Source of the DNA: Salinarchaeum sp. IM2453
Lineage (GTDB): Archaea; Halobacteriota; Halobacteria; Halobacteriales; Salinarchaeaceae
Assembly (NCBI RefSeq): GCF_019693215.1
Contig: NZ_CP081183.1
Span: 1,863,226-1,927,225, forward strand
Direction: 5' to 3'
Length of the DNA: 64,000 nt
Shown: piece after piece, positions 3,327 through 46,123 of the stretch
Layout of the letters: every line of letters starts with the position of its first letter
How positions within the stretch are numbered: the first letter of the stretch is position 1
Program-made: the position numbers and the translations under genes
Notes under the pieces: model-generated
The model's database searches: none
Told to the model about the DNA's origin: nothing
What the model saw: only the letters and a program-made list of their open reading frames with translations

Positions 3327-3815
3327 CTACGCAGCTGCTTCCTCAGCGAAGTACTCGTCGTACTCCCCACTGTCTATCTTCTCTTTGAACTCACGAGGAT
3401 TTTCGCCTTCGACTGTTACACCAAGCGATGTGCACGTACCTACAATTTCTTTTGCAGCGTTCTTCAGGTCATATGCAAGTAGGTCTGTGTGCTTTTGTTC
3501 CGCTATTTGTCGAACCTGATCCACCGAGAGATCAGCAACAAATTCTTCATGCGGTTCTCCACTTCCAGTTTCGAAGCCAGCTTCATCCTTAATCAGCTCA
3601 GCTGTTGGCGGAACACCAACTTCAATCTCAAAGGACCCGTCGTCCTCGTAATTGATCGTTACTGGCACTTCTGTGCCATCGAATGCAGCTGTCTGGTCGT
3701 TAATCTCTTGTACAACATTCTGAACATCAACTGGTGTTGGACCGAGCTCAGGACCAAGTGGCGGGCCTGGATCAGCCTGTCCACCTGGAACGAGCACTTC
3801 GATTGTTCCTCCCAT
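3327..3815 (-). CDS. rpl11: 50S ribosomal protein L11 (uL11)
   Basis: Ribosomal stalk-base protein that binds the GTPase-associated region of 23S rRNA. The 162-residue product has the family N-terminus IEVLVPGGQADPGPPLGPELGPT and the C-terminal RNA-binding helical domain (KNAAKEIVGTCTSLGVTVEG). It has the acidic C-terminal tail expected in haloarchaea. It is not accompanied here by rpl1, rpl10 or rpl12, as it would be in bacteria. A T-rich segment follows its stop. Confidence 0.96.
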   Translation of the reverse strand: MGGTIEVLVPGGQADPGPPLGPELGPTPVDVQNVVQEINDQTAAFDGTEVPVTINYEDDGSFEIEVGVPPTAELIKDEAGFETGSGEPHEEFVADLSVDQVRQIAEQKHTDLLAYDLKNAAKEIVGTCTSLGVTVEGENPREFKEKIDSGEYDEYFAEEAAA

Positions 3816-10172: not shown

Positions 10173-10225
10173 GTGAACTACCCCTGCCTACTCGCGGCCG
10201 TTGGCGGCTCCTTGAGGCAGGGGCT
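10173..10225 (-). repeat. Right end (terminal hairpin) of the tnpB element
   Basis: The stem CCCCTGCCT/AGGCAGGGG encloses a GC-rich loop. The sequence ends TAGTTCAC on the tnpB strand, five bases past the hflX stop codon. The tnpB stop codon TAG lies inside this end. By analogy with IS200/IS605 elements, this region would be the 3' scaffold of a TnpB guide RNA, with the guide running into the 3' end of hflX. That role is inferred. Confidence 0.65.
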
Positions 10226-11437
10226 TCCTGCTTCCACGACGCGCTTTGCAGGAACAACCGCAGTTCCCGTAGGGAGCGCAGTCTCCACAGGCGTTCCTTC
10301 GGAGTGACCCACTCCTAGTTTCGAGAGTCCGCGAGAAAGAACGTTCCACGCTGCGTTTGCGTCTCTGTCCACCTCGAACCCACAGGCCGGACAGGAGTGT
10401 TCACGCACCCACAGCGGTTTGGCTGTTTTGACGCCACACTGGGCGCACTCTTTGGTGGTGCCGTCAGGGTCAATCTCCACGAAGTGCGTGCCTTCTCGCT
10501 CGCACTTGTATTCGAGCAGATCAGTGAAAGTGCTCCACGCCGCTGACGCGGTATTGCGGCTGTTACGCGGCGATTCCAGCATCCCTTTCACGTCGAGGTC
10601 TTCGACAGCGACTAGGTCGTACTCCCGAGCGTAGTAGTTCGAGAGTTTGTGCAGGAAGTCACGCCGCTTGCGCTTGATGTCGAGATGACACTCAGCAACT
10701 GCCTGCCGCTGGTTTTCCCAGTTGTTTGCCCCGTGCTCTTTATGCGAGAGCTTCCGTTGCTCTCGTTCGAGCCTGTCGCGTTCGTCCGCGAGGTCAAGTG
10801 ACCCAACTGCCGTGCCGTCAGTGTCGTGGGCATACTTCAGAATCCCCACGTCGATGCCAACCATCTCGTCCGCGTCAACATCTTCCAGCGACGGTTTGGC
10901 AGGTTCATCTTTATCATCAACGGCGAAGGAGGCGTACCACTCTCCAGTTGGTTCTTTCTTGAGCGTGACTTCTTTGACTGTTTCATCTTCGGGGATTTGT
11001 CGGTGACACTCAATCGGGATATCCGCGAGTTTCGACAGCGAGAGTACAGTCTGACCGTTCTTCTTGTCGAACTCGAAGCCAGACTGGACGTATGTGAAAC
11101 TGCGGAATTCCTTGGGTGCCTTCCAGTTGAGACTCCCAACATTGTAACCCTTCTCTTTCAGTTCAGACAGGGCTTTGATACTGTCTTCAATCCGCATGAC
11201 AGCGGCCTGTGCAACCGTCGAGTACAGGTCGTTCAATTCCTCCCACCAGTCTTTCAGGTCGGTGAGTTGATTGCGGACCTGTCGCACTCGTTGATTGAGC
11301 GTTCCTGCCGAGTCGGGAATCTTGGTAAACTCCCTGAGAGCGTGGTTGTAGAGTTGCCTACAGGTGTCCCGGTGATAGTCCAGCGTTTCACGCTGTTCGG
11401 CGGTTGGTTTGAGTCGGAACCTGTAGGCGTAGTGCAT
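10178..11437 (-). CDS. tnpB: RNA-guided endonuclease TnpB (IS1341 type)
   Basis: A 419-residue TnpB with intact active-site residues: RuvC-I Asp196 (GIDVG), RuvC-II Glu279 (VAVEDLD), the C4 zinc ribbon Cys331/334/349/352 (CAQCG and CPACG), and RuvC-III in VDRDANAAWN at 356-364. TnpBs are RNA-guided nucleases that keep IS200/IS605 elements at their donor sites. No TnpA transposase is present, so the element cannot move on its own. Its codons look GC-rich beside its neighbours, which indicates transfer. The C-terminal tail SRQG runs into the terminal hairpin. Confidence 0.93.
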   Translation of the reverse strand: MHYAYRFRLKPTAEQRETLDYHRDTCRQLYNHALREFTKIPDSAGTLNQRVRQVRNQLTDLKDWWEELNDLYSTVAQAAVMRIEDSIKALSELKEKGYNVGSLNWKAPKEFRSFTYVQSGFEFDKKNGQTVLSLSKLADIPIECHRQIPEDETVKEVTLKKEPTGEWYASFAVDDKDEPAKPSLEDVDADEMVGIDVGILKYAHDTDGTAVGSLDLADERDRLEREQRKLSHKEHGANNWENQRQAVAECHLDIKRKRRDFLHKLSNYYAREYDLVAVEDLDVKGMLESPRNSRNTASAAWSTFTDLLEYKCEREGTHFVEIDPDGTTKECAQCGVKTAKPLWVREHSCPACGFEVDRDANAAWNVLSRGLSKLGVGHSEGTPVETALPTGTAVVPAKRVVEAGSPCLKEPPTAASRQG

Positions 11438-37611: not shown

Positions 37612-40600
37612 ATGCATCATATAATGCGTATCTCTCGGGGAACACTGCTTGCACTACTGTTCTTTTGTTTTATAGCGATAGGAATCGGATTTGTAACTCC
37701 TGCCGGTGGAATCAGTGAGAATCATACAGGTACTCCACACTTCCTTTCGAATAACGTATCGGAAGAGCATGTCGACAAGAATGAGTCATTAGTCATCCGA
37801 TTCTCTTCTGACGAAGACACAGTCACATCGACCTCTGATCTGAAATCACAGGCCACTAATACTCAATCGGACCTCATTGAGGAAGCTAATCGAACACCAT
37901 ATCTTGACGTTACACGGACATTCTGGATCGCAAATGCAGTATTAGTTGAGTATGATCCAGAATATGTCTCCAAAGAAGGCTTCGAAAATATCTCAGGTGT
38001 TGATCACACACATCCTAACTTTAATGTCACAAGTTCAACAGATCAGACTGACTATTATTCTGCTGATATAGACCGGTCTGATCATCAAAATAGCCGAATT
38101 CCAGCCTCTAATACAAATATATCACGCGCCACCATGGGATCGCAACAGGATGTTGACTTTGTTACATATGGACTCGACATGATTCGAGCTCCACAGACGT
38201 GGACAGCATACAATACCGCTGGCGAAGATGCCGGCGTAGCTGTGCTTGATACTGGTGTCGATGACGATCATGAAGCAATTGATGTTGAGGGGTGGGCTGA
38301 ATTTGATCGGACCGGTGACTCTGTACAATCAGACCCGACTGATCCAGATGGACATGGTACACATGTTGCTGGTACGGTGACGGGGGATCCGGTCGATAGA
38401 ACAGCAATTGGAGTTGCTCCAGACGCTGACCTACACGGTGTTCGAGTACTGGATGAAGAGGGAAGAGGATCTTTTGCTCAGGTTTTGGCTGGGATGGAGT
38501 GGGCTATTGAACGGGATGATGAAATTGACATTATTCAACTTAGTCTCGGAGTGACTGGGTATGAAGAGGGATTCATTGAACCGGTAGAAAATGCCCGTGA
38601 CGCTGGACAAATCGTATCTGCGGCAATCGGAAATGCTGGTCAAGGAGTATCCAGTTCTCCCGGAAATATACCTCAAGTAGTTTCAACTGGAGCTGTTACA
38701 TCATGGGGTGCTGTGCCATTCTTCTCTAGCGGAGAAATTGTTACAACCGAGAGTGCGTGGGGAGAAGCTGCTCGCGACGATTGGCCGACCGAATATACTA
38801 CGCCGGATGTCGCTGCTCCGGGCGTATTCGTGCAAAGCGCTGAAGCTGGTACGACAGATGCATTGACCTCAAAATCAGGGACAAGCATGGCTTCGCCGCA
38901 TACTGCTGGCGCTGCTGCTTTAGCTATCAGCGCAGCAGATGGGGATGTTGACAATCACTTGATACAAGATGCCATAGTCGAAACAGCTGTTCATCCAGGC
39001 GGTCCTAATGCTGAAGATACTCTGTACGGACAAGGAATTATAGACAGTCTTGAAACCACAAATGAACTGCTTGCTGATGCATCGATTACTGGCACCGTGA
39101 CGATTGACGGAGAGCCTGCAACTGATGCTACAGTGCAATCTAGTATTGGTGGCTCAACACGGTCTGGTGAAGATGGTTCATACACGCTTTCTGTCCCAGA
39201 CGGGGAACAAACGATTACAGCGGATTCATTTGGATGGCAGCCGAAATCCTCAGAGATTTCTATTGGTCCCGGGGAGACACAGGAAATTAACTTTAATCTC
39301 GATGAATCAGTGGCTGATGCCGAAATCGTTGATGGCCCCGCTTTTCGCATTGACCCAGGTAACCAGATTGAATTAACTCTACGTGCAACAAATATTGATT
39401 CATATACACTAGACGTACAGGGTAAAACGATTGCGGGTGAACCAATAAATGAATCTTCTCTTACCCCACATTTTAATGGGGAAGAGATTTCATTCAATGA
39501 GTCGACAGATGTTGATGTCGGTCAGCATGAAGAAGAAGAATTGAGGATAACAATCGATACAGACGAGGATCTTATATCGGGTGTTCAACTAATACATACA
39601 TTTACCGGAGATAATTCCGAGACGACACTTGAATCGCCTGAGACGACTGTCCAACCAGAGACACTTCACATCCCTAACGACCATGATCCGGACAGCTTAC
39701 AGGATGTAATTGATTTCACTGCGCGTGATACAACAATCGCTCTGGACACTGATACAACGTTTGAGGAGACAATAACTGGTACAACCGCTCTTGAGATCGA
39801 TAAATCAATTACCTTCCGAGGTGATGGTGGACAAGCTAACATTAGCATTTCAGGGATTCCCGATAACAGAGAGACAGTAGGTATCCTTGCTGAGGGACTG
39901 AATACAACGATTTCTTCAATTTCTCTTGAAGGATCCCCTGATATCGGAATCAAGGCCAGTGAACTTGGCGTCACAGTACAGAACTCGCATATCGAAGGGC
40001 CTCACACTGGAACTGTCATGGATGATGGCCATGCTATCACAGGTACACACTACCAGTCGGTTAACAAAGCTATCACTGTTGACCGTTCTGTTAATCATAT
40101 CACAGATATCGAAGCTACGGCAGAAGAAACTGGTATTGAGATTAATAGTGAAGTTGGTACGGTAGAGGACATCACAATTAGCAGCAATGAGCAATTAAAA
40201 ACAGGCATCGAGATTTCTGGGACCACTGTTGAAGAATTTGCAACTGTGAACATCACAGCAGCTGAGACTGGAATATTAGCCGATGAGAGTATGAATTTAA
40301 TCATCGAAGAGAGCAATCTAACTGATGTACAGAACGGTGTAAAGATCACTGAAAGTACCAATGTAGATCTTGACCGGTTGGAAATTGCAGCGGATGCAAC
40401 ATCACTTACAATTGCTGATGGGACAACTGGACTCAATATGCAGGACAGTACTATCAGTGGCGGTGGAATTCTTTTTGAGGATGTCACAAAGGGAGATAAC
40501 CAAGTTCAGACCGAGTACGTAGATCGGTCGTTAATCTTAACCGGGAGTCAGATGGAGTTCTCATCCTCTACAGAACCAGCCCCATTTCCAGAATATGGGT

Positions 40601-41577
40601 CGCTAGATATCTTTTACGAAACTGAACAACAGTCCTCTTCTGGACAGATGAGTATTACCGTTGGATATGACCGTGAAGATGTCCTTGGAGCAAAAAATGC
40701 TACCGTCCAGTTTTACAGATTTGATCCTTCCACCGATTCTTGGACGCCTATCTCAGAGTCGTCTGTTGATGAGGTAGAGCAGACTATCTCTGGAACAATC
40801 TCAGAAAGTGGAACTGTTGGCGCATTTGGTGAAGGTGTCCCGTATATGGCAATAACCGACCTTGTTGCTCCTGATGAAGTTGGTCAGGGCCATACATATA
40901 CTGTTTATCCAACAATCGAAAATCAGGGTGGTTCAACATACACTGATTCTGTGGAGTTCATATTTGGCGATAATCCCTCTCCTGTAGCTGATAGAAGAGT
41001 GACGCTTGACCCAGGTGAACAGACGATCCTTCCACTCTCATACCTTATTCCATCTGATTTGGATGATGGTCAGTATGATTACAGCGTGAACACCGTAAAC
41101 GAATCAGTCACCCAAACGGTGAGTATAAGCAGTAATCTTGAGCCAGCTAACATCAGCATAGATCAAGTCTCTGTCAATGAGATGAACCATGAGACAAATG
41201 ACGAAGTTATCGTATCAATAACACTAAGGAATTCAGGTGGTGCACAGGGAGGAATCTTACTTGAGTTGACAGCCAATAACAACCCAGTTACAGCAAAAGC
41301 TGCCTTGGTGGATGCACAGCAATCTAAAACCGTTGAGTTGACCCATCGGTTCGAGCATGCTGGTCCATATGACCTCGCCGTTAATGGTCAATCAGTAGAC
41401 CGAATCTACATTTATGAACCATCTGGTGTCTCAGTAACTGAAACAGAAAGTGTCACTCGACTAATTGCTGTTCTTCTTATCATTGCTATCCTTATTGGCA
41501 TTATAGCTACGGTAGTCCATATCCAGTCTGGAAAAGAGAATATGTCTGCAACTAACACCAGTCATCGGGGTAAGTAA
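37612..41577 (+). CDS. Giant secreted subtilase with beta-helix and CARDB-like regions
   Basis: 1321 residues. Signal peptide 8-30; propeptide-like region about 55-140; S8 peptidase with Asp213 (VLDTGVD), His248 (DGHGTHVAG), oxyanion Asn341 and Ser425 (SGTSMASPH). Then a carboxypeptidase-regulatory-like Ig domain (ASITGTVTIDGEPATDATV, about 489-565), a right-handed beta helix (about 700-985) similar to NosD repeats, a CARDB-like adhesion domain (about 1080-1260) and a C-terminal membrane helix (RLIAVLLIIAILIGIIATVVHI) with a basic tail. It is a cell-surface protease or adhesin. The frame ends six bases before a GC-rich island. Confidence 0.85.
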   Translation: MHHIMRISRGTLLALLFFCFIAIGIGFVTPAGGISENHTGTPHFLSNNVSEEHVDKNESLVIRFSSDEDTVTSTSDLKSQATNTQSDLIEEANRTPYLDVTRTFWIANAVLVEYDPEYVSKEGFENISGVDHTHPNFNVTSSTDQTDYYSADIDRSDHQNSRIPASNTNISRATMGSQQDVDFVTYGLDMIRAPQTWTAYNTAGEDAGVAVLDTGVDDDHEAIDVEGWAEFDRTGDSVQSDPTDPDGHGTHVAGTVTGDPVDRTAIGVAPDADLHGVRVLDEEGRGSFAQVLAGMEWAIERDDEIDIIQLSLGVTGYEEGFIEPVENARDAGQIVSAAIGNAGQGVSSSPGNIPQVVSTGAVTSWGAVPFFSSGEIVTTESAWGEAARDDWPTEYTTPDVAAPGVFVQSAEAGTTDALTSKSGTSMASPHTAGAAALAISAADGDVDNHLIQDAIVETAVHPGGPNAEDTLYGQGIIDSLETTNELLADASITGTVTIDGEPATDATVQSSIGGSTRSGEDGSYTLSVPDGEQTITADSFGWQPKSSEISIGPGETQEINFNLDESVADAEIVDGPAFRIDPGNQIELTLRATNIDSYTLDVQGKTIAGEPINESSLTPHFNGEEISFNESTDVDVGQHEEEELRITIDTDEDLISGVQLIHTFTGDNSETTLESPETTVQPETLHIPNDHDPDSLQDVIDFTARDTTIALDTDTTFEETITGTTALEIDKSITFRGDGGQANISISGIPDNRETVGILAEGLNTTISSISLEGSPDIGIKASELGVTVQNSHIEGPHTGTVMDDGHAITGTHYQSVNKAITVDRSVNHITDIEATAEETGIEINSEVGTVEDITISSNEQLKTGIEISGTTVEEFATVNITAAETGILADESMNLIIEESNLTDVQNGVKITESTNVDLDRLEIAADATSLTIADGTTGLNMQDSTISGGGILFEDVTKGDNQVQTEYVDRSLILTGSQMEFSSSTEPAPFPEYGSLDIFYETEQQSSSGQMSITVGYDREDVLGAKNATVQFYRFDPSTDSWTPISESSVDEVEQTISGTISESGTVGAFGEGVPYMAITDLVAPDEVGQGHTYTVYPTIENQGGSTYTDSVEFIFGDNPSPVADRRVTLDPGEQTILPLSYLIPSDLDDGQYDYSVNTVNESVTQTVSISSNLEPANISIDQVSVNEMNHETNDEVIVSITLRNSGGAQGGILLELTANNNPVTAKAALVDAQQSKTVELTHRFEHAGPYDLAVNGQSVDRIYIYEPSGVSVTETESVTRLIAVLLIIAILIGIIATVVHIQSGKENMSATNTSHRGK

Positions 41578-41582
41578 TCTAC

Positions 41583-41985
41583 TTACAAGTGAAGTACCAC
41601 GGGCGCGGTGGCCCGTGGCTTCGCCGTGGTCTCTGGCGTGGAGCCAGCGAAACGACCGGTGGCGAATTTAATTCCGCCCGCGCTCGTCCCTGCCGGGACT
41701 CGCGTGGAACCAATGACACCCGAACACACCGAGAGTGCCACCGCAACGGAGGTCGTCTGTTGCTGCCGTGGCGGGTGTATCCGTGGGCGTCTGCCCCTTC
41801 ACGAGGGCGCGACACAGGCCCGGCGCACCGCGTCTTACCCCGAAGTGAGCGCGCGGGTTTTGCGAGGCCGATAACGTGGGTTCCAAACTGTCGTAGGGCG
41901 TCCCGGCAGTTAAAAACAGGGACGCAGCCAGGCGGACGCGTTTCACCCCCGCCCACGGTGGGGCGGGGAAATCGCGCTGCTTTTT
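41583..41985. mobile_element. GC-rich island bounded by matched hairpins (possible non-autonomous IS200/IS605-type element)
   Basis: About 400 GC-rich bases between convergent gene ends. At the left is a perfect eight-base stem CCACGGGC/GCCCGTGG with loop GCGGTG (41597-41618); at the right CCCCGCCC/GGGCGGGG with loop ACGGTG (41947-41968). The two stems face the same way, as in IS200/IS605 elements. On the minus strand the left end reads GAAGCC, hairpin, TACTTCAC, aligning with the tnpB right end. Frames are open on both strands, but no TnpB or other domain is readable. Confidence 0.5.
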
Positions 41986-41987
41986 GT

Positions 41988-43499
41988 TTAGAATCTGGCG
42001 TCTGTATCTGGGTCTCGTGGAAGACTAATCGTAATTGTTGTTCCAGATTCATCAGGTGTCGTTACAGTCACTGTTCCCCGTGAACGACGAACGATTAGGT
42101 GGACAAGCCACATTCCAAGTCCACTACCGTGATACAGGTCGTCGACTTCTTCGCCACTTTGTAGGACTGTTTGATCCATCGCAGGCAGTCCAGGGCCATT
42201 ATCTTCGACTGTAATTTCTGTAGTGTTTTTGTTCTTTTCTACAGTAACACTCAGTTTAGGTGTGTCTTCTCCAGCGTGCACAATCGCATTCACAAGGAGT
42301 TCTTCAATTGCATCTTGTAGCTCTGGAAGAGCATGCACAACTCCTGGAGAATTTAGTTTAGTATTGATTTCAGCATTGGGGTACCGCTCTCCTATTTTAT
42401 CCACGGCATCTGATATTATCGGCCCAACCGAGATTTGAACCGGAGTACTGTCCACAGAGAGAATATTTGTGATATTTCTCGATTTTTCGGCTGTATCAAG
42501 TAATGAGTTACAGTCCTCAATGATTTGCTGTGCCTGTGTGCTGGGGTCACCAGATACGGCTGTTTGAATCTCTTCAGCACGTCCCCGAATGACGGTAAGC
42601 TCATTTCTAAGGTTATGTCTCAGCACACGGTCAACAATCGATAACTGTTGCTTGCTTTCCTTCTGTCGAGTCACTTCCCAGTACTGGTGTATACGTCCTC
42701 CGGCTAATGCCCCGACAGTAATCGGATCACTACGTCCAGTAAACCATCGATCAGATTTGTCCTTTATTTGGAAATCTGGAACGCCAACTGATTCATCGAG
42801 TGCAAATGTAGTTACGTACCGATCCTCAAATTGCTTTGGTCCTGAGACAACAGGTTGTATATATTCATCAAATAATGCATCTGCCGATAGGTCAAGAATT
42901 TCCTCTGTCTCAAATTTGAACATTGACTCGGTGGCGTCGTTGCCCCACGCAACCCGATCTTCTGAATCAAACAAAACCAATCCAATATCTACACTGTTGA
43001 GCACATCTTGCACGATAGATCGATATCGACCCTCTCTATCCGCAAGTTCAATTGACTGAGCTCGAATTCGAAGCAGTGATTCGACCCGCCAATACAACTC
43101 AGCCTGTCCAAGAGGAAGCTCGATAATCTCATCTACATTCCGCCAGACAACGTTATCAATAAGGTTACGACGGTCGCTTTCTAGTAACTTCCTATCCTTC
43201 TCTGAAAGCAAAAGTAAGTACGGTAATTGGATTGGTTCACATTCTTTTTTTTGTCTCTCAAGCTCGTCAGCATATGCCTGAAATGCCTCTACATCAAGTA
43301 TACAGAGGTCAAAATCAGCTTTCGAAAGTTCGACATCTGAAGAAATGACTGAGTATTCAGTGTGTCCTTCAATCCAATTGATCAGCAATCGCTTGTTACC
43401 CTCATCAGCGAGTAGTGGATATATCTTGGCGGGGTTATCGGACGTCCCGATTTCTTCTGTCTCTCCGAAAGTCAGTCTTTGAGAACGATTTTTTGTCAT
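41988..43499 (-). CDS. Sensor histidine kinase with pseudo-receiver and PAS domains
   Basis: 503 residues, soluble. The N-terminal receiver-like domain (about 35-145, FDLCILDVEAF with Asp69, LPYLLLLSE) is followed by a PAS domain (about 155-275), a HisKA helix with RHNLRNE (His295), and an HATPase domain with VEDNGPGLPAMD and GSGLGMWLV. It overlaps the upstream kinase gene by four bases. No response regulator is nearby, so the target may be elsewhere or the KaiC-like partner. Confidence 0.87.
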   Translation of the reverse strand: MTKNRSQRLTFGETEEIGTSDNPAKIYPLLADEGNKRLLINWIEGHTEYSVISSDVELSKADFDLCILDVEAFQAYADELERQKKECEPIQLPYLLLLSEKDRKLLESDRRNLIDNVVWRNVDEIIELPLGQAELYWRVESLLRIRAQSIELADREGRYRSIVQDVLNSVDIGLVLFDSEDRVAWGNDATESMFKFETEEILDLSADALFDEYIQPVVSGPKQFEDRYVTTFALDESVGVPDFQIKDKSDRWFTGRSDPITVGALAGGRIHQYWEVTRQKESKQQLSIVDRVLRHNLRNELTVIRGRAEEIQTAVSGDPSTQAQQIIEDCNSLLDTAEKSRNITNILSVDSTPVQISVGPIISDAVDKIGERYPNAEINTKLNSPGVVHALPELQDAIEELLVNAIVHAGEDTPKLSVTVEKNKNTTEITVEDNGPGLPAMDQTVLQSGEEVDDLYHGSGLGMWLVHLIVRRSRGTVTVTTPDESGTTITISLPRDPDTDARF

Positions 43500-44650
43500 T
43501 GTTCGGGCCCTTCGTCATCTGAATCCGCATCACTTCGTTGGGTCCTTCTATGTTGATGTGTAGGGACCTCCGACTGCTTGGTTGTTTTGTCTCTTTCTGG
43601 CTCGATGACTGGAAGTGTAACACATACGCTTGTTCCTCCCTCCTCCCTGTTTGCTATCTGCATTGTACCTCCATAGTCTGTAACAAGAGTATCAACTAGA
43701 TACAGACCAAGACCTGCCGCCGGGTGATCTAACCCTCCTTCAGCTCGACCTCGGACAGCCTCTCGATGCTCAGGGGGAATCCCTGGTCCATCATCTGCAA
43801 CCGTAACACTTGCCCGAGCTTTTTTGACATCAGTTTGTATCCAAACACGAGGCGTGTCCTTTGGATTGTGTTCGACGGCATTGTCGATTAGATTTCGAAA
43901 TACTGAGGTAAGTAACTCATCTGCTCGGATTGTTGGATGTACTGACCCGGGATTGTATTCTATTTGTGCATGGCTATGAACTTCACGGCGACGGTTAATA
44001 ACTTCACCCAGCTGCTTGTGGAGGTCAATTGAAACATAGTTTCTGTTGTCCCGGTCAAATGTCTGAATCACATCTCGAAGCGACTCTGTAAGGCCAACTA
44101 CGTGCTCACTACCGGCAATAACATTCTCAAGCATTGGAATCCCCTTCTCATTCAAATGCGGTCTGAGCTCCTTAGCCCAACCTTGAATTACTGCCATGTC
44201 ATTCCGAATATCGTGCCGTGTAATGCGATTGATAATCCGAAGTCGCTTGTTTGTTTCACTAAGATGACCTGCTTGTTTACTGACTTGTAGTGCCATGTTA
44301 ATCCGTTTCGAAAGTGCCATCGGTCGCAATGGCGTCTGAAGAATATCATCAACAATCTTATCTATGTCATTCGGCAAGTACTCTACTGTTTTACTAGCAA
44401 TAGATTCGGGTAGGACTAGAAGATATGGTATATACCCCCGATCATATTTTCGATCGCGAAGCAACTCTTCGTTCTCTATAAGTCCTTGTCGATCAAGGAC
44501 ACAGAGGTCAAATTCTTTCGACGCAATGTCTTCTGATGGTAACACTATATTAAATCGATCTTTTTCACGTAACCACTCTTTCAGCACTTGATAGTTCCCA
44601 GTGTCTTTAATAAGAATGAGAATATCTGCCGACTCATTGTCCATATTCAT
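43496..44650 (-). CDS. Sensor histidine kinase with pseudo-receiver domain
   Basis: 384 residues, soluble, no PAS. The receiver-like domain (about 8-120, FDLCVLDRQG with Asp53 and IPYLLVLPES) resembles that of the downstream kinase. HisKA RHDIRNDMAV (His146) and HATPase VADDGPGIPPEH and AAGLGLYLV are intact. The tail is basic and acidic (HQHRRTQRSDADSDDEGPEQ). It starts three bases after the KaiC-like gene ends, forming a KaiC-kinase-kinase operon. Confidence 0.87.
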   Translation of the reverse strand: MNMDNESADILILIKDTGNYQVLKEWLREKDRFNIVLPSEDIASKEFDLCVLDRQGLIENEELLRDRKYDRGYIPYLLVLPESIASKTVEYLPNDIDKIVDDILQTPLRPMALSKRINMALQVSKQAGHLSETNKRLRIINRITRHDIRNDMAVIQGWAKELRPHLNEKGIPMLENVIAGSEHVVGLTESLRDVIQTFDRDNRNYVSIDLHKQLGEVINRRREVHSHAQIEYNPGSVHPTIRADELLTSVFRNLIDNAVEHNPKDTPRVWIQTDVKKARASVTVADDGPGIPPEHREAVRGRAEGGLDHPAAGLGLYLVDTLVTDYGGTMQIANREEGGTSVCVTLPVIEPERDKTTKQSEVPTHQHRRTQRSDADSDDEGPEQ

Positions 44651-44653
44651 GTT

Positions 44654-46123
44654 TTATTTTGTTCCGGGATTCTCCTTCGTGCCTTGGTCCCAGTCCGGTG
44701 TTCCAGTTAATATCCCCCGAAGCTCTGGCAGTGGTTCACCGACACGGATTCCATACTCAGTAATCTCTAGCTCTCGAAGCCACTTCTCGTAATCACTTGT
44801 TCTTTTCTTCAATACTCCTATCACCTTTCGGAGTTGGCCTTGATGTTCAACATGTCGTAAGAAAACAATGTTATCAGCTAGATTGCTAATTCCTTCTTCA
44901 GTTGCTTGGAAGCTCCCCGTTATTTGATGTACTTCATTGATAATGATTCCAATTGCGCCTGTGTTTCTCAGAAACCGGCCAACTTGAAGCAATTCGTCCA
45001 TTGGATCATCCCCGAAGCCTCGAAGTCCTTGCTTGTATCCACTAATCCCATCGATCATGACAACCTCAGTATTATTATTTTCGACCTCTTCCCGCACCTG
45101 CTGAGAGAATTCATCGACCGTCATGGATCCGGGGGTAATCTCTTCGATATGGAGTGTTTCTTGCTCCATCATTCGTTCTACGGGCAAGTTTACTGACTCA
45201 GCCCGCCGCAGTATTGTATTTATTGACTCTTCAAATGAGAACATTACTGATCGCTTCCCCCGACCTGCTGCCTCTTTCAGAAACTGTAGCCCGGTGGTTG
45301 TTTTTCCAACACCTGTTGGACCAGTCAGGTACGTGATCGTACCGGATTCTATTCCCCCACTAAGTAATTGATCCAGTTCTGGTACTCCCGATGATAACCG
45401 TTCAACTTCATAGTCTCGTTCATAATCGCCGGCGAAAAGCTTTGGCCAGACGACGATCCCTTGATCAGTAATGTCAAATGTATGGTCTCCTCGCTTGTAC
45501 GTTGATCCACGAAACTTCGACACCTCGATTGCTCGTCGTTCCGGATAGTCTTTAAGTGTGATTACTGCATCCGCGAGGAACTGTAAGTCATCATCATTAA
45601 CTGTATTAGCGGCCTGTGAAGTTAGCATCACTGTTGACTCTTGAGATTCCAGAAAATCAAGAAAACCAAGAATCTGCTTACGAAACTGCCGATCATCAGT
45701 TGTAAGATACCGAAACTCAGTTATTGGGTCCAAAAGAACGCGCTCCGGATCAATCTCCGCAACTGTATCTCGAATTTCATCAACTAATGGAGGACCTTCA
45801 ACATCCGCCGCTTTGAATAACTCGTATGTTTGGTCATCTTGGAAGTCTTTTCCAGTTGGAGAAAGATCCAGAAACTCAACTGAGCTAAAATCCAGCCCAA
45901 ATGCGTCAACTGTTTGCAGAGCATACTCTGCTGGCTCTCCTAAATTGATATACAGTCCAGATTCGTTCTCAATTGATCCAGCAGCTAGGAAGTGCAATCC
46001 AAAGATTGTCTTCCCTGCTCCTGGGGGGCCCCGAAGTAAAACACTACGATTTGGGACATATCCCCCGTAAAGAATTTCATCGAGTTCAGGAATTCCAGTA
46101 GAAACCCGGGAATCTGTCGACAT
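44654..46123 (-). CDS. KaiC-like double-domain RecA-family ATPase
   Basis: 489 residues with two RecA-like halves: STGIPELDEILYGGYV and Walker A GPPGAGKT at 32-39; SSGVPELDQLLSGGIESG and GPTGVGKT at 268-275. The second half has the FSFEES catalytic Glu pair, while the first half has LGEPAE. In the segment aligned with the cyanobacterial phosphosites (GIS-N-LADNIVFL), a Ser is kept and the Thr is replaced by Asn. Haloarchaeal relatives are light- or time-responsive cir genes. The kinase partners follow in the same operon. Confidence 0.88.
   Translation of the reverse strand: MSTDSRVSTGIPELDEILYGGYVPNRSVLLRGPPGAGKTIFGLHFLAAGSIENESGLYINLGEPAEYALQTVDAFGLDFSSVEFLDLSPTGKDFQDDQTYELFKAADVEGPPLVDEIRDTVAEIDPERVLLDPITEFRYLTTDDRQFRKQILGFLDFLESQESTVMLTSQAANTVNDDDLQFLADAVITLKDYPERRAIEVSKFRGSTYKRGDHTFDITDQGIVVWPKLFAGDYERDYEVERLSSGVPELDQLLSGGIESGTITYLTGPTGVGKTTTGLQFLKEAAGRGKRSVMFSFEESINTILRRAESVNLPVERMMEQETLHIEEITPGSMTVDEFSQQVREEVENNNTEVVMIDGISGYKQGLRGFGDDPMDELLQVGRFLRNTGAIGIIINEVHQITGSFQATEEGISNLADNIVFLRHVEHQGQLRKVIGVLKKRTSDYEKWLRELEITEYGIRVGEPLPELRGILTGTPDWDQGTKENPGTK

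Follow-up and report, generated by a model that had tools for sequence, protein, structure and literature searches.

An enzyme-free transposable element of Salinarchaeum sp. IM2453 carries a conserved omegaRNA-like RNA

The locus and its flanking genes

The window, a 64,000-nucleotide stretch of the Salinarchaeum sp. IM2453 genome (G000; 2.66 Mb, one contig), contains a GC-rich island at positions 41583-41985, in which the GC fraction rises from 0.40-0.46 outside to 0.65-0.68 inside. An earlier sequence-only reading had placed this island between convergent gene ends, and the arrangement was confirmed. A gene for a subtilisin-like protease of 1321 aa (37612-41577, plus strand; weak family match, below the curated cut-off) ends 11 bp from the element described below, and a gene for a sensor histidine kinase of 503 aa (41988-43499, minus strand; family matches below the equivalog cut-offs) converges on it from the other side. 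Next to the element, the minus strand of 41988-46123 carries two histidine kinase genes and a KaiC-like gene in tandem. Searching the window with Rfam at gathering score returned one tRNA and nothing else.

The two perfect 8-bp stems first noticed in the island were recovered at 41597-41604/41611-41618 (loop GCGGTG) and 41947-41954/41961-41968 (loop ACGGTG). No other perfect 8-bp hairpin with a loop of 3-8 nt exists in 41583-41985. Among 2000 dinucleotide-preserving shuffles, two such hairpins occurred in 7, and a pair with a common loop 5-mer in none. The island also folds as a single sequence better than 100 of 100 shuffles on either strand (z -3.1 for the plus and -3.9 for the minus strand). 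On the minus strand its left end reads ...GGTACTTCAC, as had been claimed, and ...GGGGTAGTTCAC stands after the window tnpB at 10178-11437.

A mobile element with a defined target

The island is a mobile, enzyme-less element with a known target. The search for further copies, proposed together with the first description, located them in the same genome and in others, and their comparison fixed the boundaries. The whole element, a PATE of the IS200/IS605 class, comprises 399 nt and runs from 41987 to 41589 on the minus strand. In eight aligned copies both ends are exactly common while the flanks are not, and the length of 399 nt recurs in three copies of genome G165. The left end (41945-41987) contains a subterminal hairpin (CCCCGCCC CACCGT GGGCGGGG), and the right end (41589-41618), delimited by its hairpin and the aligned copies, consists of a hairpin (CCACGGGC CACCGC GCCCGTGG) and the terminal TACTTCAC, which is also the 3' end of the RNA scaffold. 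At 399 nt the element is enzyme-free: no TnpB was detected by profile within 1.5 kb (locus L153), and reading frames are broken across copies. The class assignment put forward from the hairpins thus gains support from copies in the same and other genomes, their common exact boundaries and an empty site without duplication. Palindromes lie near both ends, the short 5' target is fixed and not duplicated, and no transposase or nuclease gene lies inside.

The genome of IM2453 holds two more near-full copies, one with 82% identity over query positions 10-413 and one with an internal deletion, together with several solo ends. Among 125 genomes of one haloarchaeal family, 29 contain copies at E<=1e-8. 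Plasmids of Natrinema gelatinilyticum, Natronococcus occultus and Natronococcus sp. AD-5 carry the element at full length, and so do chromosomes; in total, 24 plasmid records had any match to the island. Phage records searched with the island and two related elements gave no match, and no exact right-end match was present in the viral contigs searched. Three copies each lie at distinct sites in G165 and G221, with identities from 385/387 to 397/399, and three copies in G179 are identical at 392-394 of about 400 positions. Such near-identical copies at differing sites of one genome indicate recent movement of TnpB-free copies and further favour the enzyme-less element. Short, core-deleted copies of 172 nt, including target letters, are present in Natrinema thermotolerans and Natrinema pallidum.

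An empty site was recognised for the Natrinema thermotolerans copy, whose flanks are joined in other genomes as ...GATCGYTTTCTGAACGRCC... or near it, against ...GATCGCTTTCTAA[element]ACGGCC... at the occupied site. This was seen at one site in all four genomes examined, with 74-77% identity over the joined query, and is consistent with insertion on the 3' side of a five-base target, TCTRA, without duplication. The site in Natrinema mahii was rejected as a clean empty site, as a deletion or some other change affects its right side; its left flank up to the target TTCTAT is also found in two relatives. For the target count, an earlier left-end pattern was discarded as circular, since it included the target letters, and an anchor free of them was used instead. 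Among the copies so anchored (21 of 34; the window copy and 12 others missed the stricter pattern), the target was YCTAW in all 21, as TCTAA in 18, CCTAA in 2 and TCTAT in 1. In the window copy, TTCTAA is seen directly: the target TCTAA (41988-41992, minus strand), kept in the flank and proposed as the TAM, agrees with the anchored copies, the empty site of the other copy (TCTGA) and the list of open reading frames, and the histidine kinase gene uses its TAA as stop codon. Of 26 copies, 6 have a target TAA that terminates a frame open over 165 codons or more, so some insertions lie just behind genes.

Several further features were observed around the copies. A 54-bp module of two short hairpins around GTGATCAC lies inside L002, L091, L078 and L093 and is absent from the window copy; the same module occurs at L057-L065 (left end) and L009, and resembles a small mobile repeat. 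In L090 (about 3420-3480) and L067, the left-end hairpin loop is occupied by a different insert, about 55 bp long. It recalls the SMR-A repeats, which are said in the accessible text of PMC3119063 to target PATE palindromes. At L088:7484-7519, a 36-nt right-end fragment lies inside a frame resembling the Fic-like gene that adjoins the Natrinema mahii element (L093). In Natrinema gelatinilyticum, the annotated 3' end of a gene of the dihydrofolate reductase family reaches into the copy (L077:1804-1886), and the protein may therefore end in transposon sequence.

A conserved RNA fold in the 3' part of the element

The 203 nt at the right end (41589-41791, minus strand) form an omegaRNA-like structured RNA core, recognised by covariation and by a test on independent copies. 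Alignment A3 contains this region from 19 copies out of 24 candidates, with identical rows counted once. The copies of G134 and G143, the short pallidum/thermotolerans form, a truncated Natrinema gelatinilyticum copy and G111d were excluded because the right end was not found by pattern or an internal deletion was present. The A3 fold comprises eight helices, with 97.9% of 1024 cells paired and compensatory double changes at 16 of 54 pairs (54 cells). None of 500 shuffles reached the values for pairing and double change (pairs, cells), and sliding the partner by 1-3 columns lowered pairing to 33-47%. Within the close subfamily of 15 copies, double changes occur in only 2 pairs, and 100 of 500 shuffles reach as many.

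As the structure had been derived from the A3 sequences themselves, it was tested on copies that had not been used (17 new copies, 16 of them distinct; L254 is without part of the core). In the 16 distinct copies, 94.7% of cells were paired, and double changes occurred in 20 pairs against 1-5 when the partner was slid by 1-2. G-U exceeded C-A cells in A3 (72 versus 11) and in the new copies (49 versus 19), which indicates an RNA read from the minus strand of the window. On these comparisons of sequences, the conserved fold and its strand are firmly assigned. The core measures 203 nt in close copies (202 in one) and 199 in a second subfamily, which has a 4-nt gap; no open frame is free of stops in all 19 copies, and indels of 4 nt and 1 nt separate the subfamilies. 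The average AT content upstream of the RNA revealed no clear promoter.

Against the Rfam model RF02657 (sot2652), the upstream part of the island (41712-41875, minus strand) gave a weak match of 20.8 bits (E 0.023) and a second piece (41591-41648) gave 17 bits; with a gathering score of 61, both lie well below membership in that family.

Homology to the RNA of one TnpB clade

A covariance model of the core, R1, was built from TnpB-free copies only; it scores the island core at 240.9 bits. R1 was run on 32 loci, of which 26 are TnpB loci of the IM2453 genome, two are the IS605 elements from plasmids and four are others. It matched the 3' ends of the TnpB genes L034 and L237-L239 on the sense strand (E 8e-18 to 9e-16), in each case ending at the element's right end, and it also matched a remnant locus (L235) and the 3' end of the Natronorubrum aibiense tnpB (E 2.7e-4). 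The other 25 TnpB loci of the IM2453 genome gave nothing below E 0.8. In L034, L237 and L238, frames of 447-474 aa that are 89-100% identical end in overlap with the RNA, and by eye these proteins retain RuvC residues and zinc finger alike. The TnpB-linked elements of the L034 type have the target core TCTA in common with the island element.

By sequence and fold, the island RNA is thus homologous to the 3' end of one TnpB clade, the place where the omegaRNA (reRNA) lies. The initial impression that the interior does not resemble tnpB was therefore mistaken: the interior is a conserved omegaRNA-like RNA. The secondary structure is conserved as in an omegaRNA, and the strand and the position at the right end agree as well. 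No tnpB gene is encoded with the RNA, for which reason we name it omegaRNA-like and orphan, and not a standard omegaRNA locus. The island is both a mobile element and an RNA gene.

The ends of the element and the source of TnpA

Over its 56 nt, the left end shares 94.6% identity with its counterpart in the tnpA+tnpB element of Natronorubrum aibiense, which adds to the IS200/IS605 assignment, and 87.5% with that in an element of Haloplanus sp. HW8-1 with an annotated tnpB. The right end resembles IS605 elements in layout and loop only. The left end thereby relates the PATE to an IS605 element with TnpA, and the order in such elements (left end, tnpA in reverse, tnpB forward, right end) sets the direction of the island element from 41987 to 41589.

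The IM2453 genome has 51 matches to PF07282 (TnpB) and one Y1 transposase (PF01797). No TnpA with the left end of the island family was found in this genome; its sole Y1 TnpA has the left end of another PATE family. From the near-identical copies at new sites, we infer that TnpA would be supplied in trans. That other family, also free of TnpB, comprises L057-L066 and L072 (e.g. G000:C1:46361-46503), measures about 440 bp and has the target TCTAC; its left end is that of the only Y1 TnpA element of the genome (L009). Across ten aligned copies, 15 of 111 predicted pairs show double changes, and the RNA is of the same kind.

Orphan status and distribution

At E<=1e-6, R1 has a match in 89 of 392 sampled genomes of the order. 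Of 23 R1 places in the IM2453 genome, TnpB accompanies three (one intact, two remnants) and is absent from 20, by a profile search at E<=0.01 on both strands within 1.5 kb on either side; a fourth locus, L164, has 48 TnpB residues by tblastn only. Elsewhere, 26 of 27 R1 loci taken from other genomes in the search of the order are without TnpB, and the 27th adjoins the TnpB of another element with its own right end. Ten more high-scoring copies had no TnpB. A further 40 loci, chosen among lower-scoring R1 matches, had TnpB sequence in five (three intact with overlapping RNA, one remnant and one more than 1.3 kb away) and none in 35, three of which are truncated at the edge of a contig.

A TnpB of the L034 type was found at E<=1e-90 in 52 of 89 R1 carriers versus 78 of 303 non-carriers. 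This co-occurrence is not used as proof, since linked copies carry the RNA by construction and kinship among the genomes is ignored. Conversely, 69 of 89 carriers are without such a TnpB at a threshold of at least 60% identity, and 37 of 89 at E<=1e-90. If TnpB is used in trans, either a looser match than this clade must suffice or many copies are idle.

Comparison with known systems

The PATEs of Haloquadratum walsbyi (PMC3119063) are the closest counterpart. Both have subterminal palindromes and no inverted terminal repeats, duplicate no target, are too short for a transposase and are related to IS605-type ends. Six families are described; one of them, HqIRS71, contains a portion of the C-terminal tnpB region and is termed non-coding. 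Where the accessible account presents them as fused ends or core deletions and proposes no guide RNA, the island has a covarying omegaRNA without tnpB. The haloarchaeal sotRNAs, which are known omegaRNAs (PMC12558985, in the portion available), correspond to the island RNA in their position at the tnpB 3' end and IS right end and in the weak match to RF02657. In contrast, RF02656/RF02657 RNAs sit inside tnpB elements, and the island falls far below the gathering score and is without tnpB.

In ISDra2, according to the available text of PMC8612924, the reRNA derives from the tnpB 3' end and the right end, about 16 nt of flank serve as guide, and the TAM equals the transposase target. The same layout is found here, with the scaffold ending at the right end, the guide expected from the flank and the target as TAM; however, the ISDra2 reRNA is encoded with tnpB, whereas nuclease and RNA would come from different elements in the island family. 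In IS200/IS605 TnpBs the guide starts with the right-flanking nucleotide (PMC10711439, accessible part). By this reRNA layout (PMC8612924, PMC10711439), the predicted guide of the window copy would be the first 16-20 nt or so of the right flank (41569-41588, minus strand), antisense to the 3' end of the protease gene region.

A TnpB-free PATE with a strongly transcribed 3' part is known from the virus HRTV-DL1 (PMC10544981, in its accessible text). It was considered as a member of the island family and rejected, as the best R1 score was 2.4 bits, not a match; its expression data hence do not bear on this family. The HRTV-DL1 PATE region (L243:972-1101) matches HgcC (RF00062) weakly, at 21.4 bits and E 0.018, which is below the gathering score. 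Altae-Tran and colleagues reportedly described, in 2021, stand-alone IscB omegaRNA loci, in which a guide scaffold likewise occurs without a nuclease gene, although with IscB and not TnpB as the nuclease. PATEs and haloarchaeal omegaRNAs are thus both known. In the literature searched, which lay mostly outside subscription papers, no description was found of TnpB-free PATEs conserving an omegaRNA, and such a PATE appears to be new within that literature.

Interpretation of the orphan RNA

We consider it reasonably likely that the element is a PATE of the IS200/IS605 class that lost tnpA and tnpB and kept a left end at YCTAW, a right end and an omegaRNA scaffold under selection that is read in the direction of the right flank, with the enzymes acting in trans. 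The simplest alternative, a degenerate PATE in which the RNA is a useless passenger left over from tnpB and a core-deleted IS605 element is moved by TnpA, has precedents in the core-deletion PATEs of Haloquadratum and the partial tnpB region of HqIRS71 (PMC3119063, accessible text) and in the short core-deleted copies of Natrinema thermotolerans and pallidum. A passenger should decay, yet the fold is kept by compensatory changes between TnpB-free subfamilies, and tnpB is found in none of the examined copies of the 203-nt type; we regard this explanation as rather unlikely. Another use for the RNA would be as a decoy or regulator that competes for TnpB or pairs with TnpA or TnpB mRNA, thereby taming autonomous elements and not guiding cleavage. 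The scaffold is the same as that of a resident TnpB, and orphan copies outnumber linked ones in many carriers, including IM2453 (20 of 23 R1 matches without TnpB by profile). A decoy role alone does not account for the constant and exact coincidence of the RNA end with the transposon end, where the flank is a natural guide, and this role seems improbable to us.

The terminal hairpins of IS200/IS605 elements work as single-stranded DNA, and the interior fold might be needed solely in that form for the action of TnpA. A single-stranded DNA intermediate is mentioned in the available text of PMC3119063. The interior helices, however, are found 60-200 nt inside the right end, well away from the terminal hairpins; G-U is accepted far more readily than C-A, which speaks for RNA of one strand, and the tnpB 3' ends bear the same fold, making this a very improbable account. 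A fixed, single-copy host RNA gene, which had been named as the alternative to a mobile element, would agree with the conserved RNA structure. It is contradicted by several copies per genome at a site that differs in every genome, by the empty site and by a flank that differs from copy to copy, and we find it barely credible.

Proposed mechanism and significance

Taking up the reading of a PATE that keeps its guide RNA, the data suggest that the element relies on other elements for its transposase as well as for its RNA-guided nuclease. TnpA supplied in trans would cut at the element ends, and the expressed RNA would take its guide from the right flank. Another element's TnpB of the L034 type (the best in the IM2453 genome being G000:C1:158780-160117) could then load the orphan RNA and cut the vacated site, consisting of YCTAW and the guide sequence, and repair from the sister copy would put the element back. 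In this way the element would probably be retained by TnpB acting in trans. Each of the 33 copies has a different 20-nt right flank, which is what guides gained through insertion would show and a single host target would not.

More tentatively, these elements may represent widespread haloarchaeal non-autonomous transposons that have shed both enzymes and maintain their own guide RNA under selection, moved by a borrowed TnpA and re-established by a borrowed TnpB, that is, guide-only homing parasites. If this is true, a guide RNA alone, without a nuclease gene, would be worth keeping for a transposon, and TnpB would serve elements in trans. The orphan-RNA element would offer a ready genetic test of the TnpB retention model. 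A haloarchaeal genome that has TnpB genes by the dozen and almost no TnpA would then amount to a community of enzyme-sharing elements.
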